64,000 nucleotides of DNA from Chloroflexota bacterium (GTDB lineage: Bacteria; Chloroflexota; Dehalococcoidia; Lucifugimonadales; Australimonadaceae), in NCBI GenBank assembly GCA_009838965.1, contig VXQP01000104.1:40798-104797 (forward strand), in the 5' to 3' direction. How positions within the stretch are numbered: the first letter of the stretch is position 1; every line of letters starts with the position of its first letter. Made by a program: the position numbers and the translations under genes. This document shows positions 21,490 through 31,061 of the stretch, in pieces. The notes beneath the pieces are model-generated. The model was not told where the DNA came from, ran no database searches, and saw only the letters and a list, made by a program, of their open reading frames with translations.

Positions 21490-22590
21490 CTACAGCCGCT
21501 CGAGGATCATATCGGTCATGTGCTGGGTGGTGGAGAACTCCGCGCCGGGAGGGGCGAGATCGGCGGTACGGTGGCCGTCGTTCAGGGCGCTCTCGACCGC
21601 CGCGTTGATGGCGGCGGCCTCCTCTGCGAGGCCGAACGAGTACTGCAGCATGAACGCGGAGCTGAGGATGGAGCCGACGGGATTGGCCTTGCCCTGACCC
21701 GCGATGTCGGGCGCGCTGCCGTGGCTGGGCTCGTAGAGGCCCTTCACCTTGCGCGTCCTGCCCTTCGCGTCCCTGCCGGGGAGTCCGGCGAGGCTGGCGG
21801 ACGGCAGCATGCCGAGCGAGGCGGAGAGGACGGCGGCCTCGTCCGAGATGATGTCGCCGAACATGTTCTCCATGACCATCACGTCGAAGCTCGTGGGGCG
21901 TGTGATGAGGACCATCGCGCAGGAGTCGACCAGCTGGTGCTCGAGCTCGACGTCCGGGTAGTCCTTGGAGACCTCAATGGCGATCTCGCGCCAGAGGCGC
22001 GAGGACTGGAGGACGTTCGCCTTGTCGACCGAGGTGAGCTTCTTGCGGCGGGAGCGGGCGAGCTCGAAGCCGACGCGCAGGATGCGCTCGATCTCCTTCT
22101 CGGTGTAGAGGAGGGTGTCGACGCCCTTGCGTCCGGCCTTCGTCTCCCATCGCTTCTTGGGCGGGGCGTAGTAGAGGCCGCCGGTGAGTTCGCGCAGGAT
22201 GACCATGTCCGCGCCGCGCACGCGGTCGTCCTTGAGCGGGCTTGCGGGCTCCATGCCGGGGAAGACCTTGACCGGGCGGATGTTGGCGTAGAGGCCGAGC
22301 GCCTTCCGCAGGCCCAGGATGGCCGCCTCAGGACGGACGGGCTCGTTGTCCCACTTGGGGCCGCCGACCGCACCGAAGAGCACGGCGTTCGCGCGCCTGG
22401 CGGCACGGACGGTCTCGTCGCGCAGGGGCGTGCCGTAGGCGTCGATCGCGCCTCCGCCCACCGTGTCGGTCTGGTAGCGGAAGTTGTGCTTCCAGCGGGC
22501 GGCGACGGCGTCCAGCACCTGCTGCGACGCTCCGGTGACCTCCGGGCCGATGCCGTCGCCCGGCAGAACCATGATGTCGAAAGTGGCCAT
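21490..22590 (-). CDS. leuB: 3-isopropylmalate dehydrogenase
   Basis: 366 aa; LPGDGIGPEV; NMFGDIISDEAAVLSASLGMLPSASL. Confidence 0.95.
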   Translation of the reverse strand: MATFDIMVLPGDGIGPEVTGASQQVLDAVAARWKHNFRYQTDTVGGGAIDAYGTPLRDETVRAARRANAVLFGAVGGPKWDNEPVRPEAAILGLRKALGLYANIRPVKVFPGMEPASPLKDDRVRGADMVILRELTGGLYYAPPKKRWETKAGRKGVDTLLYTEKEIERILRVGFELARSRRKKLTSVDKANVLQSSRLWREIAIEVSKDYPDVELEHQLVDSCAMVLITRPTSFDVMVMENMFGDIISDEAAVLSASLGMLPSASLAGLPGRDAKGRTRKVKGLYEPSHGSAPDIAGQGKANPVGSILSSAFMLQYSFGLAEEAAAINAAVESALNDGHRTADLAPPGAEFSTTQHMTDMILERL

Positions 22591-22638: not shown

Positions 22639-23226
22639 TCAGGAGTGCGTGCTCTCGAAGGCGTCTATCGCCCCCTCGTTCTGGAGCGTCAGGCCGATGT
22701 CGTCCAGCCCCTGCACGAGGTTCTCCTTGCGGAAGGGGTCGATGTCGAACGACGCGGCGAGGCCGAGGCTGTCGGTAACCTGCTGCGTCTCGAGGTCGAC
22801 GGTCAGCTCGTAGCCCTGGACCTCCTGGGCGCGGGCGATGATGGTGTCGACCTCGGCGGCGTCGAGCATGACGGGGAGGAGGCCGTTCTGGTAGCAGTTG
22901 TTGCGGAAGATGTCGCCGAAACTCGGCGCGATGACGACGCGGAAGCCGTACTGCTGGATCGCCCACGGCGCGTGCTCGCGGGAGGAGCCGATGCCGAACT
23001 GCGGTCCGCTCACGAGGATGGTGCCACCGGCGTACTGCGGCTGGTTCAGGATGAAGCCGGGCTTGGGGGAGCCGTCCTCCTCGTAGCGCAGCTCGTAGAA
23101 GAGCAGCTCGCCGAACCCGACGCGGTCGATCTTCTTGAGGAAGCGCGCCGGGATGATCTGGTCGGTGTCGACGTTCGGCATGTCGTAGGGAACGACCTTG
23201 CCGGTGTGATTCGTGAAAGCGTCCAT
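22639..23226 (-). CDS. leuD: 3-isopropylmalate dehydratase small subunit
   Basis: 195 aa; NVDTDQIIPARFLK; FGIGSSREHAPWAI. Confidence 0.95.
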   Translation of the reverse strand: MDAFTNHTGKVVPYDMPNVDTDQIIPARFLKKIDRVGFGELLFYELRYEEDGSPKPGFILNQPQYAGGTILVSGPQFGIGSSREHAPWAIQQYGFRVVIAPSFGDIFRNNCYQNGLLPVMLDAAEVDTIIARAQEVQGYELTVDLETQQVTDSLGLAASFDIDPFRKENLVQGLDDIGLTLQNEGAIDAFESTHS

Positions 23227-23262: not shown

Positions 23263-24666
23263 TTAGTTGAGTTCGCGCACGTCCACGAAGTGCCCCGCGA
23301 TGGCGGCTGCGGCGGCCATCGGCGGGCTGACGAGGTGCGTGCGTCCGCCGGGGCCCTGCCGTCCTTCGAAGTTGCGGTTGGAGGTGGAGGCGCTGCGCTC
23401 GCCGGGCGCGAGGCGGTCGGGGTTCATGGCGAGGCACATCGAGCATCCGGCGTCGCGCCACTCGAACCCGGCGTCGGTGAAGACCTGGTCGAGCCCCTCC
23501 TCCTCCGCCTGCTGCTTCACTGCCCACGAACCGGGGACGACGAGCGCGCGGACGGTGTCGGCCTTCTGCTTACCCTTCGCCACCGCGGCGGCGGCGCGGA
23601 GGTCCTCGATGCGGGAGTTGGTGCATGAGCCGATGAAGACCGTGTCGACGGCGATGTCCTGGATGCGCTCGCCGCCGTTCAGGCCCATGTACGCGAGCGC
23701 CTTCTCCACGGCGCCCTGCTCCTGCGACGACTCGAACTCGTCCGGCTTCGGCACACGCCCGCCCACGGGGAGCACCTGCGCGGGGTTCGTGCCCCACGTC
23801 ACCTGCGGCTGGATGTCGGCGGCGTCCAGCGTGACGACAGTGTCGAATGTCGCATCGGGGTCGGTGCGGAGGGCCGTCCAGCGCTCGACGGCGGCGTCCC
23901 AGTCAGCGTCGCTGGGGGCGTACTCGCGCCCCTTCAGGTAGGCGAACGTCGTCTCGTCGGGCGCGACCATACCGGTGCGTGCGCCCGCCTCGATGGACAT
24001 GTTGCAGACCGTCATGCGGCCCTCCATGGACATCTCGCGGAAGACGGAGCCGGTGTACTCGATGGCGTGGCCGATGCCGCCGGACGTGCCGATCTTCCCG
24101 ATGATGGCGAGGATGACGTCCTTGGGCGTGACGCCAAAGCCGAGCGTGCCGTCCACGCGGACCTCCATCGTCTTGGGCTTCGCCTGCCAGATGCACTGCG
24201 TCGCGAGGACGTGCTCGACCTCGGACGTGCCGATGCCGAACGCCATCGCGCCGACCGCGCCATGCGTCGCGGTGTGGCTGTCGCCGCAGACGATGATCAT
24301 GCCGGGCTGCGTGCGCCCCTGCTCCGGCCCGATGACGTGGACGATGCCCTGCTTCTCGCTGAACATGTCGTGGTACTCGAGGCCGAACTCGTCGGCGTTG
24401 CGCTGCATCGCCTCGAGCTGCGCCTTCGAGACCTCGTCCGTGAGGGGCTTGTCGCGGTCGTTGGTGGGGACGTTGTGGTCGGCGACGGCGACGGTCTTGT
24501 CGAGCCTGCGGATACGCCGGTTGTTGAGGCGCAGGCCGTCGAACGCCTGAGGCGAGGTGACCTCGTGGACGAGGTGCAGGTCAACGTAGAGCAGGGAGGG
24601 TTTGCCCTCCTCCTCCCGCACGACGTGCGCGTCCCATATCTTCTCGAACATCGTCTTGGGGGCCAT
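23263..24666 (-). CDS. leuC: 3-isopropylmalate dehydratase large subunit
   Basis: 467 aa; [57 protein letters not shown]. Confidence 0.97.
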
Positions 24667-24684: not shown

Positions 24685-25137
24685 TCAGACGGCGAAATCG
24701 CCCAGGACCAAGTAGGGGAGTTCGCTGTTCCTGGCGAATGCGCGGTCGTTGCCGATGATGACGTCGCAGCGGTCAGCCACGGCGGTCGCTGCGATGATAG
24801 CATCCGGCGCCTTCAAGTTGGTGGAGGCGCGTACCTGCGCTGCCGCCTGAGCGATGTCGCTGCTCATCGGAGTGACGTGCAGGTTGGGGTGAAGGGCGAA
24901 GAACCTGCGTATGGAGAACAGCAGGCCCCTGTCCCGTATGCGCAGCGGGCGCACCAGCGTCTCCATCTCCACCATGACGGACACGAACCCGACAGCTGCG
25001 CCGCTCGCGAGGAGTGAGAACGCCTGCGCTGCGTAGACGCCGTACGGGTAAACGTCCTCAAGGTAGTAGATGACAGCGTTGGTGTCGAACGCTATCCGTG
25101 TCCTGCCCGTGAGAGCGTCGCTCAGGGCCGACGTCAT
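24685..25137 (-). CDS. PIN-domain protein (putative VapC-like toxin ribonuclease)
   Basis: 150 aa; RIAFDTNAVIYYLED, EMETLVRPL, PDAIIAATAVADRCDVIIGNDRAF acidic residues intact. Confidence 0.85.
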   Translation of the reverse strand: MTSALSDALTGRTRIAFDTNAVIYYLEDVYPYGVYAAQAFSLLASGAAVGFVSVMVEMETLVRPLRIRDRGLLFSIRRFFALHPNLHVTPMSSDIAQAAAQVRASTNLKAPDAIIAATAVADRCDVIIGNDRAFARNSELPYLVLGDFAV

Positions 25138-25679
25138 TACGCGGCCCTGAGCGACGCTGCAATCTCTCCATCCAGGCGGTAGCGCTCCGGCTCGTCATCC
25201 TGCGCGGGGATGCGGCGCACCCAGTGGTTGGACGTGAGCCTGTCCAGCGTCAGGGTTAGATCAGTAGGGTGGCCATTCTCGGGGATGAGCCATGCCAGGT
25301 CCGGGAAGGTGGCCACATGGTACGGGCAGTCCATGAGCGTGTCGGCGACTGCCCGTACGCTGCCGTCCGTGGCGTAGAGGTCCTCGAACCGTTTGCACCA
25401 CTCGCGTGGGTCCGAGTCGCTGATGTGCTCGGACAGCGGCTCGTACCAACTCTCGCGCTCGCGCAGGACATAACGGTCGATGCTCTCCTTGGTGCCGCCG
25501 TAGGCCCCCTTCATGCTCCCTTGAAAATACTGCACCCAGCTCTCAGGCTCCTTGACCAGGACGATGTCTCCGTCGATGACGGCCGCGGCCAGCGTGTCGC
25601 CGGGCTTGATGCCAACCTCACGGAGGATGGCAACGGGGATGGTTATCTGGTTCTTGCTGCTGACGGTTATAGTTCGCAT
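25137..25679 (-). CDS. AbrB/SpoVT-type antitoxin-like DNA-binding protein with long C-terminal extension
   Basis: 180 aa; MRTITVSSKNQITIPVAILREVGIKPGDTLAAAVIDGDIVLVKEPE swapped-hairpin motif; overlaps PIN gene. Confidence 0.8.
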   Translation of the reverse strand: MRTITVSSKNQITIPVAILREVGIKPGDTLAAAVIDGDIVLVKEPESWVQYFQGSMKGAYGGTKESIDRYVLRERESWYEPLSEHISDSDPREWCKRFEDLYATDGSVRAVADTLMDCPYHVATFPDLAWLIPENGHPTDLTLTLDRLTSNHWVRRIPAQDDEPERYRLDGEIAASLRAA

Positions 25680-25823: not shown

Positions 25824-27374
25824 TTAGACGGCGCCTGCCGCCTCCGGCGAGCGCGAGGTGTCGCCCATCGCGATCAGGCGGTTGAGCGCATTCATGTAGG
25901 CCTGGGCGCACGCGACGATGATGTCCGTGTCCGCGCCGCGTCCGATGTACGGCTTGCCGTCCTGTTCGATGCGGATGCTCACCTCGCCGATCGCGTCGAT
26001 GCCCTCCGTCACCGAGTTGACGCTGAACTCCGTCAACTCGTTCGGCACGCCGACGATGCGATTGATGGCCTGGTAGACGGCGTCCACCGGTCCGGTGCCT
26101 GTCGCCGCGTCAGTGCGGAGCGACCCGTCTTCGAGGGACAACTGAACGGTCGCGGTCGGGATCTCGCCGGTGCCGCAGGTCACCTGCACGTGCTCCAGCG
26201 AGTACGTCTCCTCGATAGCCGTGCGCTCGTTGCCCATGAGCGCAATGAGGTCGCGGTCCGTCACCTCGCGCTTCTTGTCGGCGAGCTCCTTGAACGATTC
26301 GTGCACCTTGTCGAGTTCCTCGTTGCTCAGCGTGTAGCCCAACTCCTCGAGCCGCGAGCGCAGTCCGTGGCGTCCGCTCAGCTTGCCGAGCACGAGTTCG
26401 CTGCGGGGCACGCCGACGTCCAGCGGGTTCAGGATCTCGTAGGTGGTGCGCTCCTTCAGCACGCCGTCCTGGTGGATGCCGGAGGCGTGCCGGAACGCGT
26501 TGCGCCCGATGACCGCCTTGTTGGGCTGCACCGGGAAGCCGCTCACCTGGCTCACGAGGCGGCTGGTGTTGTAGAGCTGCTTCGTGTCTATCTCGGTGTC
26601 CACGCCGAAGTAGTCGCCGCGCGTGCGGAGGGCCATGATGACTTCCTCGACGGCAGTGTTCCCCGCGCGCTCGCCGATGCCGTTGATGCAGCCCTCAACC
26701 TGGCGGGCACCCGCCTTCACCGCGGAGAGGCTGTTGGCGACCGACATGCCCAGGTCGTCGTGGCAGTGCACGGAGATGCGGACGCTGTCGCCCAGCTCCG
26801 GCACCTCGGCGCGCAGGTAGGTGATAAGGCCGCCGAACTCCTCCGGCACCGCGTAGCCGACCGTGTCGGGGATGTTGATGGTCGTTGCGCCCGCGTCGAC
26901 GGCTGCCCGCACCATGTGAGCGAGGAACTCGCGCTCCGTGCGGCTGGAGTCCATGGGGGAGAACTCGACGTCGTCGGTGTACTGGCGCGCCCGGGAGACG
27001 GCCTTCACCGCGATCTCCACCACCTCTTCCCGGTTCTTGCGCAGCTGATGCTGGATGTGCTGGTCCGAGGAGGAGATGAAGATGTGGATGCGCGGGTGCG
27101 CCGCGTCCTTCAGCGCCTCGCCGGCCCGGTCCACCGCGGCCTCGTTCGCGTGTGCGAGCGCTGCGATGATCGGCTTCCGCACCTCGCGCGCGATCGTCTG
27201 CACCGCCTCGAAGTCGCCGGGCGAACTGACGGGGAAGCCCGCCTCGATGATGTCGACGTTCAGCCGCTCGAGCTGCCTGGCGATCTCCACCTTCTCGTCC
27301 ACCGTCATCCCCGCCCCGGCGGACTGCTCTCCGTCCCGGAGCGTGGTGTCGAAGATGAGCACTCGGTCTTCCAT
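25824..27374 (-). CDS. leuA: 2-isopropylmalate synthase
   Basis: MEDRVLIFDTTLRDGEQSAGAGMT; SVHCHDDLGMSVANSLSAVKAGARQVEGCINGIGERAGN. Confidence 0.97.
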   Translation of the reverse strand: MEDRVLIFDTTLRDGEQSAGAGMTVDEKVEIARQLERLNVDIIEAGFPVSSPGDFEAVQTIAREVRKPIIAALAHANEAAVDRAGEALKDAAHPRIHIFISSSDQHIQHQLRKNREEVVEIAVKAVSRARQYTDDVEFSPMDSSRTEREFLAHMVRAAVDAGATTINIPDTVGYAVPEEFGGLITYLRAEVPELGDSVRISVHCHDDLGMSVANSLSAVKAGARQVEGCINGIGERAGNTAVEEVIMALRTRGDYFGVDTEIDTKQLYNTSRLVSQVSGFPVQPNKAVIGRNAFRHASGIHQDGVLKERTTYEILNPLDVGVPRSELVLGKLSGRHGLRSRLEELGYTLSNEELDKVHESFKELADKKREVTDRDLIALMGNERTAIEETYSLEHVQVTCGTGEIPTATVQLSLEDGSLRTDAATGTGPVDAVYQAINRIVGVPNELTEFSVNSVTEGIDAIGEVSIRIEQDGKPYIGRGADTDIIVACAQAYMNALNRLIAMGDTSRSPEAAGAV

Positions 27375-27422
27375 GTCATTCCTCCGCATACAGGCCGCTC
27401 ACGGCCTCCGCTGTGCCGGCGG

Positions 27423-28418
27423 TTACTTCTTCCCCAGGAACGTCATCATCCCCCGGAGCTCCGCCCCGACAGATTCGATCTCGTGACCGGCAGCCGCCTC
27501 ACGCATCGCCTTGAAGCGCGGCTGCCCTTCGTGGTTCTCGGCTATCCACTCGCGGGCGAACGAGCCGTCCTGTATCTCCTGGAGCACGCGCTTCATCTCG
27601 GCACGGGTGTGCTCGTCCACCACCCGGGAGCCGCGGCTGTAGTCGCCGTACTCCGCCGTGTCGCTCACGGAGTAGCGCATGTACTTCATGCCGCCCTCGT
27701 AGAGCAGGTCGACGATGAGCTTGAGCTCGTGCATCACCTCGAAATAGGCGATCTCCGGCTGGTACCCGGCCTCCACGAGCACCTCGAAGGCGTTGGTGAT
27801 GAGGCTGGTGACGCCGCCGCAGAGCACGGTCTGTTCGCCGAAGAGGTCGGTCTCCGTCTCTTCCTTGAACGTCGTCTCCACGATGCCTGCGCGGTCCGAG
27901 CCGATGCCGGCGCCGTAAGCCAGTGCGTTCGCGAGCGCGTCGCCCGAGGCGTCCTGATGGATCGCCACGAGCGACGGTACCCCCTGTCCGTCGACGAACA
28001 CCTCACGCACCCGGTGACCGGGCGCCTTCGGAGCGATCATCGACACGTCCACGTCGGCGGGAGGCTGTATCTCCCCGAAGTGGATGTTGAATCCGTGCGC
28101 GAACATCAGCGTCTTGGAGCTGTCCAGGTTCGGCTCGATGGACTCCGTGTAGATGCTGCGCTGCGCAGTGTCCGGCGCGAGCACCATTATGACGTCGCTC
28201 TCCTTCGTGGCCTCAGCCGGAGTGGCGACCCGCAGGCCTTCGGCCTCAGCTTTTGCGCGGCTGGCGCTGGTCGGCAGGAGGCCCACCATCACGTCGACAC
28301 CGTTGTCGCGCAGGTTGAGCGCGTGCGCGTGCCCCTGGCTGCCGTAACCGATAACGCCGACCCGCTTGCCGCTCAAGCGGCCGATGTCGGCATCTTCCTT
28401 GTAGTACACCTTCGCCAT
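27423..28418 (-). CDS. ilvC: Ketol-acid reductoisomerase
   Basis: 331 aa; [28 protein letters not shown]-like [12 protein letters not shown]. Confidence 0.97.
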
Positions 28419-28451: not shown

Positions 28452-29021
28452 TTACGGGACGACTTCCGTATCCGGCGCGCTCTGCGCGGCGGGGACAGCC
28501 GTCTGCTTCGTGCCCGCGGCCACGCCGCCGCGGGTCATCGCTATCCGTCCTGTACGCATCGTCTCGCGGACGCCGAAGGGCTGAAGGAGCTTGATGAGCG
28601 CGTCTATCTTCCCCTCGTCGCCCGTCACCTCGACGATGACCGTGTCCTTGCCCACGTCTACGATGCCTGCGCGGAAGATATCCACTATCTGCATGATCTC
28701 CGCGCGGTTGTCCTTGTTGGACTTCACCTTCAGCAGGGCCATCTCGCGCACGACGCTGCTCTCCGACGAGATATTCGTGACACGCACGACGTCTATCAGC
28801 TTGTAGAGCTGCTTCGTCACCTGCTCGACCACCCAATCGCCGCCCTCCACGACGAACGTCATGCGGGAGAGCCCGGCCGTCTCGCTGTGGCCGACCGCGA
28901 GGCTGGAGATGTTGAACCCTCGCCGGGAGAACAGCCCCGCGACGCGCGCCAGCACCCCCGGCCTGTCGTGCACCAGCGCCGTTATCGTGTGGACGTGTCC
29001 GTTCAGGCTTACGTCAGCCAT
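28452..29021 (-). CDS. ilvN: Acetolactate synthase small subunit
   Basis: 189 aa; ACT domain HTITALVHDRPGVLARVAGLFSRRGFNISSLAVGHSE. Confidence 0.95.
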   Translation of the reverse strand: MADVSLNGHVHTITALVHDRPGVLARVAGLFSRRGFNISSLAVGHSETAGLSRMTFVVEGGDWVVEQVTKQLYKLIDVVRVTNISSESSVVREMALLKVKSNKDNRAEIMQIVDIFRAGIVDVGKDTVIVEVTGDEGKIDALIKLLQPFGVRETMRTGRIAMTRGGVAAGTKQTAVPAAQSAPDTEVVP

Positions 29022-30745
29022 GACAGCGCTTCCCGCCCCGCAGGGGACTCGATCATCTCGAACACGCTCTCACCCGCCGGAACGTGCGGGTACACGTTCT
29101 CCTCCGGTTCCACGTGGAAATCGATGATGGCCGGCCCGTCCACCGCCGCGGCCTCTTCGATGGCCGACCGCACCTGCGGCTCGTCCGTGACGTGCTTCGC
29201 CCAGATGCCGTACGCCTCGGCGAGCTTCACGAAGTCCGGGTTGGCGCTGTAGCCGGACGCCACGCGCGAACCGCCGTAGAAGAGGTCCTGCAGCTGCCGC
29301 ACGAGGCCGAGGTTGTTGTTGTTCAGAATGGCGAACTTCACAGGCACGTTGTGCTCCACGATGGTCGCCAGTTCGGACATCGTCATCTGGAACCCGCCGT
29401 CTCCAGCGATGCTCCATACCGGGCGGTTGGGCTGCGCGAACGCCGCGCCCATCGCCGCGGGCACTTCGAAGCCCATCGTCCCCAGCCCGCCGGACGTGAT
29501 CCAGGAGCCGGGCTCCTTGAACACGTAGTGCTGAGCCGCCCACATCTGGTGCTGCCCCACGCCGGTAACGACGATGGCGCGTCCGTCCGTGACGTCACAC
29601 AGTTCGCGGACGACGTGCTGCGGACGGAGCCCGCTGCCGTGGCCTGAACCCAGGGGGTGCTCGGCGCGCATTGCGTCTATCTCTGACATCCACTCGGGAC
29701 GCGAGACCTGCTCCACCTGCTTTTCGAGCGCGTGCAGCACACGCTTCGCGTCGCCCACGATCGGCACCGTGACGCGCACGTTCTTGCCCACCTCGGCGGG
29801 GTCGATATCGATGTGGATGACCTTCGCGTTGGGGGCGAAGGCGCTCAGCCTGCCGGTGACCCGGTCGTCGAACCGCATCCCGACCCCGATGATGAGGTCG
29901 GCGCGGTCTATCGCCCAGTTGTTGTACGCCTGGCCGTGCATCCCCGGCATGCCCATGCTCAGGATGTGCTCGCCGGAGAAGCTGCCGATGCCGAGCAGCG
30001 TCGTGATGACGGGGATCTGCGCCTTCTCCGCGATCTCCCGCACCTCCGCGAACGCGCCGGAGATGATCGCGCCGTGCCCCACCATGAGCAGGGGGCGCTG
30101 CGAGTCCGCGATGAGCTGCGCGGCGCGCTTGATCATCTGCCCGTGCCCCTCCATCGTCGGCTTGTAGGAGGGGAGGTCGACGTGCTCCGGGTAGTCGAAG
30201 TCGTCGCTCTCGGTGAGCACGTCGCGCGGCAGGTCGATGAGCACGGGGCCTGGGCGGCCCGTACGCGCGATGTGGAACGCCTCGCTCATGATCTGCGGGA
30301 TGTCCGCAGTGTCCATGACGAGGTAGTTGTGCTTGGTGATGGGGAGCGTGATGCCGGTGGTGTCCGTCTCCTGGAACGCGTCACGTCCGATGGCGGCGCG
30401 CGGCACCTGCCCGGTTATCGCCACGATGGGGACCGAGTCCATCATTGCGGTTGCCAGCGGCGTCACGAGGTTCGTCGCCCCGGGCCCGGAGGTCGCGACG
30501 GCGACGCCGACCTTGCCGGACGCGCGGGCATAGCCGTCCGCCGCGTGACCGGCGTTCTGCTCGTGCCGCACGAGGATGTGCCGCAGTTGCGGGTACTCCG
30601 GCAGCGTCTGGTAGAGCGGCAGTATCGCGCCGCCGGGAAGGCCGAACATGATGTCCGTTCCTTCCCGCACCAGGCTTTCGCAGACCATCTGTGCGCCGGT
30701 CAGATGCAAGACTCCCTCGCTTTCCTTCGCCTGTCGTTCCGTAAC
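29009..30745 (-). CDS. ilvB: Acetolactate synthase large subunit
   Basis: TPP enzyme; FGLPGGAILPLYQ; GSWITSGGLGTMGFEVPAAMGAAFA; likely GTG start at 30745 (ORF track start lies in the T-box terminator). Confidence 0.95.
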   Translation of the reverse strand, partial: VTERQAKESEGVLHLTGAQMVCESLVREGTDIMFGLPGGAILPLYQTLPEYPQLRHILVRHEQNAGHAADGYARASGKVGVAVATSGPGATNLVTPLATAMMDSVPIVAITGQVPRAAIGRDAFQETDTTGITLPITKHNYLVMDTADIPQIMSEAFHIARTGRPGPVLIDLPRDVLTESDDFDYPEHVDLPSYKPTMEGHGQMIKRAAQLIADSQRPLLMVGHGAIISGAFAEVREIAEKAQIPVITTLLGIGSFSGEHILSMGMPGMHGQAYNNWAIDRADLIIGVGMRFDDRVTGRLSAFAPNAKVIHIDIDPAEVGKNVRVTVPIVGDAKRVLHALEKQVEQVSRPEWMSEIDAMRAEHPLGSGHGSGLRPQHVVRELCDVTDGRAIVVTGVGQHQMWAAQHYVFKEPGSWITSGGLGTMGFEVPAAMGAAFAQPNRPVWSIAGDGGFQMTMSELATIVEHNVPVKFAILNNNNLGLVRQLQDLFYGGSRVASGYSANPDFVKLAEAYGIWAKHVTDEPQVRSAIEEAAAVDGPAIIDFHVEPEENVYPHVPAGESVFEMIESPAGREALSWLT

Positions 30746-30765: not shown

Positions 30766-30797
30766 AAAAAAAGACCCGCCCCATGAAGGGACGGGCC
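30766..30797 (-). terminator. Intrinsic terminator of the ilvB T-box leader
   Basis: Minus strand GGCCCGTCCC-ttcatg-GGGCGGGTC-TTTTTTT. Confidence 0.85.
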
Positions 30798-31026
30798 GTT
30801 AACCCGCGGTACCACCCTACTTCCCCGGCATCCGAGATGGCCGAGGCAGCTTTCCTGCGCGGTAACGGCGCGCTCCGCTGGCCCTACTGTTGCTGTTCAG
30901 GCCAGCCGCTCGGGGACGAGTTCAGGAGGGCTTGTCCATCGCCGGTCTCGCACCAGAACGACCGGCTCTCTGGGATGCGCTTGCCCCTTACTACTTCCCT
31001 TCCCAGCGGAACGGATGTTAGAAGCG
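30766..31026 (-). promoter_or_regulatory. T-box riboswitch leader upstream of ilvB-ilvN-ilvC-leuA... (putative Leu CUC specifier at complement 30918-30920)
   Basis: Minus strand AGGGTGGTACCGCGG T-box sequence (30804-30818), Stem I features GGGAAGTAGTAA, CAGAGAGCCGGT, GGTGCGAGACCGGC, then GAA-CTC-GTCCCCGAGC. Confidence 0.9.
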
Positions 31027-31031
31027 GCAAC

Positions 31032-31061
31032 ATGATAGTACAAAGCATCACATCGAGTCAA
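31032..31061 (-). promoter_or_regulatory. Putative promoter of the ilv-leu T-box transcript
   Basis: Minus strand TTGACT-N18-TATCAT. Confidence 0.6.

Follow-up and report, generated by a model that had tools for sequence, protein, structure and literature searches.

A T-box leader with a leucine specifier upstream of the ilv-leu genes of a Dehalococcoidia bacterium

Introduction

Which tRNA is monitored by the RNA leader in front of ilvB in this genome, and how far along the branched-chain amino acid genes does its control reach? Both questions are raised by the minus strand of a 64,000-nucleotide stretch of DNA (the window), for which an original prediction had proposed a T-box leader with a leucine CUC specifier governing ilv and leu genes together. 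The host is a Dehalococcoidia bacterium. Among named genomes, the nearest ilvB (74% identity) belongs to a Dehalococcoidia MAG (L080), in which the gene is likewise preceded by a T-box; the next relatives come from other Dehalococcoidia and Chloroflexi, including SAR202.

The mechanism is already established, and the locus represents a classical element in a host that has received less study. Its exact precedent is the ilv-leu operon of Bacillus subtilis, whose leucine T-box has CUC as the specifier triplet (Marta 1996, as cited in PMC5794164). The two loci are alike in the class of element, in the specifier and in the control of ilv and leu genes by a leucine tRNA through transcription antitermination, as PMC5794164 describes it for B. 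subtilis and as we propose here. In contrast to B. subtilis, the present host is a high-G+C member of the Dehalococcoidia, the operon contains a toxin-antitoxin-like pair, and trpA is located divergently upstream of the leader.

T-boxes outside the Firmicutes, assumed in the original prediction, are known from Chloroflexi: a 2008 survey reported them for ileS, trpE and a trpB-like gene in Dehalococcoides (PMC2494555). Those leaders represent the same element in the same bacterial class, and the genome analysed here has trpE and ileS T-boxes too; however, the survey, which covered the two genomes then available, listed no ilv leader (PMC2494555). The present locus extends the best-known leucine T-box arrangement, that of B. 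subtilis ilv-leu, to the Dehalococcoidia, for which the early survey had only ileS and trp leaders.

Results and discussion

Identification and architecture of the leader

The RF00230 covariance model matches positions 31013-30784 of the minus strand over its full length (model positions 1-219 of 219) with 106.9 bits, above the gathering score of 93 bits, and an E-value of 1.3e-22. This is the sole Rfam match at gathering thresholds within the window. The T-box assignment is thus borne out, and each sequence motif on which it had been based was located at its place on the minus strand between 31061 and 30766. The leader exhibits all parts of a transcriptional T-box, namely a promoter, Stem I, a Stem II with S-turn, Stem IIA/B, Stem III, the T-box bulge and a terminator that excludes an antiterminator. 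The sigma-70-like promoter TTGACT-N18-TATCAT, already proposed, lies at 31061-31032 with 10 of 12 matches, against 0.1 expected in shuffles, and is largely kept in three congeners (L248-L250).

Stem I (30906-31009, minus strand, as are all features of the window below) was assigned by the RF00230 alignment and by helix covariation. It begins with the basal helix CCGC/GCGG, followed by the K-turn region, the helix GGGA/UCCC, the specifier loop and an upper helix; the AG bulge AGAGA and the distal GGUG loop, the predicted tRNA elbow contact, are aligned to the model. Stem II (30878-30905) contains the S-turn strands GAA and AGUA and is supported by alignment to RF00230 and by covariation. The Stem IIA/B pseudoknot (30857-30877), with helices CGG/CCG and GCGC/GCGC and an F-box-like CCGUUA, was placed by the same model and by an alignment of 37 leaders. 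Stem III (30823-30846), with the purine run GGAAAG before it, rests likewise on RF00230 and covariation.

The antiterminator (30787-30818; AGGG-UGGUACC-GCGGGUU-AAC-GGCCCGU-CCCU, -11.7 kcal/mol) carries the 7-nt bulge UGGUACC at 30814-30808. Its A2 helix opens with a G-U wobble, which is G-U in 35 of the 37 leaders and corresponds to a pair at the base of A2 that has been described as an aminoacyl-group sensor (PMC7583486). The GC-rich hairpin and T7 of the original prediction form a terminator-like site with a stem at 30797-30773 (-21.2 kcal/mol) and the T-run at 30772-30766, and the terminator also covaries (91.6% paired). Terminator and antiterminator both use GGCCCGUCCCU, so that the two structures are mutually exclusive. 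The ilvB start codon, TTG at 30709, lies well downstream of the leader, which argues for control at the level of transcription. An ATG at 30784 was rejected as the ilvB start; it is situated inside the terminator, homology to ilvB begins near the TTG, and the distance from this ATG to the conserved TTG/GTG start varies among congeners.

The folding energy of the leader by itself is unremarkable (z -1.5), and the evidence for its structure is therefore the covariance model and covariation rather than energy. Folding of the leader alone was rejected as a proof of structure, given this score and a minimum-energy fold that mispairs the specifier. The 37 aligned leaders all come from the same order and were chosen for a CUC specifier, so that conservation of CUC among them is not evidence. 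Across this alignment, 82.4% of cells are paired and 40 pairs show double changes, with 243 double-changed cells; not one of 500 shuffles, nor any slid version, equalled these values. The helices on both sides of the specifier loop covary: the one below it has 100% of its cells paired and 28 double changes, and the upper one, AGGGG/CCUCC according to RNAalifold, shows double changes in all five of its pairs.

An unremarkable folding energy might also be displayed by a non-functional sequence that resembles a T-box through decay or by chance. We consider this explanation exceedingly improbable in view of the E-value of the RF00230 match, the compensatory changes across the order in leader and terminator alike, and the retention of the leader upstream of ilvB in all five congeners. 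T-boxes were found in 58 of 59 related genomes.

Specifier codon

In the model alignment, the specifier is a leucine CUC codon at 30918-30920. It is flanked by GAA (30923-30921), lies 6 nt before GAGC (30911-30908) and faces AGUAGUA (30995-30989). CUC constitutes 74% of the specifiers in leucine T-boxes (PMC7778990). The leucine reading, originally deduced from position in the consensus, is now supported by placement in the specifier loop of RF00230 and by a register shared with the trpE, cimA, ileS, leuS and valS leaders.

Three further T-boxes occur in the genome, upstream of trpE (L002), cimA (L003) and ileS (L004); the cimA and ileS leaders, at 66.3 and 50.3 bits, respectively, fall short of the Rfam cut-off but contain the core motifs. 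At 6 nt before GAGC, the ilvB leader reads CUC, the trpE leader UGG, and the cimA and ileS leaders both AUC, so that the four T-boxes of this one genome form a consistent regulon (Leu, Trp, Ile, Ile). In relatives, CUC leaders precede ilvB (44 leaders) or leuS (8 leaders, with the leuS assignment checked by family search for 2 and read by eye for the others). UGG is found before trpE or genes shortly before trpE, AUC before ileS or cimA, and GUC before valS. The leaders of the synthetase genes ileS, leuS and valS carry matching codons and thus calibrate the register counted from GAGC. The leuS leaders of the same order (L010, L011, L017 and others) also resemble the ilvB leader in their UGGU bulge, but control leucyl-tRNA synthetase instead of biosynthesis.

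Folding of Stem I, suggested with the original prediction as a check on the specifier, is overruled by comparison. In isolation, the minimum-energy fold pairs CUC with part of AGUAGUA, whereas comparison between leaders places the codon in the loop. The trpE leaders retain AGUAGUA opposite GAAUGGA (as in L002), which is unable to form pairs of this type, so the pairing of CUC with AGUAGUA is not conserved. It appears in the isolated fold because tertiary loop motifs lie outside the folding model.

A shifted frame would turn the specifier into ACU (Thr) or UCG (Ser), and the element would then sense another tRNA. One-base shifts of the specifier frame are known in some T-boxes (PMC7778990), and the Ile-type leaders examined here have one extra base before the specifier. 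However, the register counted from GAGC yields a codon that fits the downstream gene in every class checked, and sensing of threonine or serine would be senseless for an ilv-leu operon. On comparison with the trpE, ileS, cimA, leuS and valS leaders we rejected the shifted frame, which is very unlikely, and retain CUC as the specifier.

Cognate tRNA and the T-box bulge

The genome encodes a tRNA-Leu(GAG) (G000:C70:8848-8934) with discriminator A and the end ...GCACCA, whose ACCA 3' end is complementary to the UGGU of the bulge; the correspondence expected for a leucine T-box is therefore present. The trpE leader has the bulge UGGC, matching the genome's tRNA-Trp, which ends in GCCA. Across the order, U occupies the fourth bulge position in 71 of 74 leaders of the Leu and Ile types, and C does so in 20 of 24 of the Trp type (Fisher p 4.7e-14, a value that overstates the effect because related leaders are not independent). 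Some Trp leaders place a U opposite G, a wobble already described (PMC7778990). UGGC also occurs in 3 of the 54 Leu leaders of relatives (L018, L230 and the congener leader L219); in the genome containing L219, tRNA-Leu(GAG) ends in ACCA, which would leave a C-A mismatch at the fourth base. The tRNA-Leu(GAG) and tRNA-Trp genes are adjacent (G000:C70:8848-9024), and both tRNAs are apparently sensed by T-boxes here. The assembly, a draft of 106 contigs, yielded no call for tRNA-Ile(GAU).

Proposed mechanism

Our analysis establishes the anatomy of the leader and its covariation, the register of the specifier, the matching tRNA and the gene content of the locus. We assign the element as a transcriptional T-box riboswitch that senses tRNA-Leu(GAG), with a probability of about 0.96. 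It almost certainly responds to uncharged leucine tRNA and allows transcription of the genes when leucine is short.

Binding of the tRNA, the switching step and how far the transcript reaches are modelled on the T-box family. RNA polymerase would initiate near 31025 on the minus strand and transcribe the leader. Two contacts of uncharged tRNA-Leu(GAG), the pairing of its anticodon GAG with the Stem I specifier CUC and that of its ACCA end with UGGU in the bulge, would hold the antiterminator in place; the terminator at 30797-30773 would be blocked, and ilvBNC-leuA would be transcribed, with leuCDB following by read-through. The 3' end of charged tRNA-Leu would be unable to pair, the terminator would form, and transcription would end before ilvB.

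Probable exchange of leaders between genes

Among relatives, five ilvB leaders carry AUC, GUG or GUA instead of CUC. Two of them (L026 and L190) are leaders of a distinct ilvB paralogue. The remaining leaders L205, L210 and L213 (genomes G027, G022 and G033) have AUC, GUG and GUA specifiers, respectively. The ilvB proteins behind them are nested among those of the CUC type, and the leaders themselves group with Ile leaders even when the specifier is masked. A single clade of all ilvB leaders is rejected with p-AU 0.0003, which is indicative only, as the test was made after the pattern had been seen and covers the two paralogue leaders as well. Point mutation of the specifier as the origin of the odd leaders is disfavoured by the grouping of the masked leaders and by the rejection of one clade.

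The combination of CUC-type ilvB proteins with Ile-type leaders is most simply read as leader exchange. Our data lean towards a scenario in which T-box leaders move as whole cassettes within the order, and in which a Leu-type ilvB leader was replaced by an Ile-type leader in at least three lineages (L205, L210 and L213), so that sensing shifted from Leu to Ile or Val through more than a point mutation of the specifier. Duplications and specificity changes of T-boxes have been noted in general (PMC3766115), and the related leaders described here lend themselves naturally to studies of how the specificity of tRNA-sensing leaders changes.

Extent of the operon

The gene order ilvBNC-leuA-leuCDB was predicted correctly. 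The genes for the large and small subunits of acetolactate synthase, ilvB (29009-30709, assigned by homology, with a start kept in congeners) and ilvN (28452-29021), are followed by those for ketol-acid reductoisomerase, ilvC (27423-28418), and 2-isopropylmalate synthase, leuA (25824-27389). Next come two inserted genes, encoding a MazE/AbrB-type antitoxin-like protein (25137-25679) and an adjoining PIN-domain (VapC-like) protein (24685-25137). The remaining leucine genes leuC (23263-24666), leuD (22639-23226) and leuB (21490-22590), and two genes of the TauE family after them, are spaced by no more than 48 nt.

Control of every ilv and leu gene by a single leader, as originally predicted, is only partly secured. 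The inserted pair separates leuC from leuA and has a candidate promoter of its own, so leuCDB may in addition have transcripts that do not depend on the T-box. A promoter-like TTGACT-N18-TACTAT is found at 25751-25722, just upstream of the pair, and the same region (about 25751-25700) contains an inverted repeat CTTGGTA...TACCAAG that is kept in congeners, as expected of the operator of an autoregulated antitoxin. The gap after leuA is 144 nt, compared with at most 33 nt within ilvB-ilvN-ilvC-leuA. These features could indicate that the T-box gates only ilvBNC-leuA, while leuCDB and the TauE genes are expressed mainly from a separate promoter before the VapBC-like pair. We regard this arrangement as possible but rather unlikely, as the minus-strand sequence from leuA to the pair yielded no terminator, and two other genera of the family that lack the pair (L251, L252) keep leuA and leuC close together. 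The latter observation suggests that the ancestral operon was probably continuous and that transcripts reading through are likely still made. The leader thus likely places leuCDB under leucine control, although this control may be diluted.

The MazE/AbrB-like and PIN pair, for which PADLOC returned no match, is present in three congeners (L248-L250), in one of them in diverged form (60-66%). In a further congener (G001, L247), ilvBNC-leuA is not followed by leuCDB, unlike in the other congeners.
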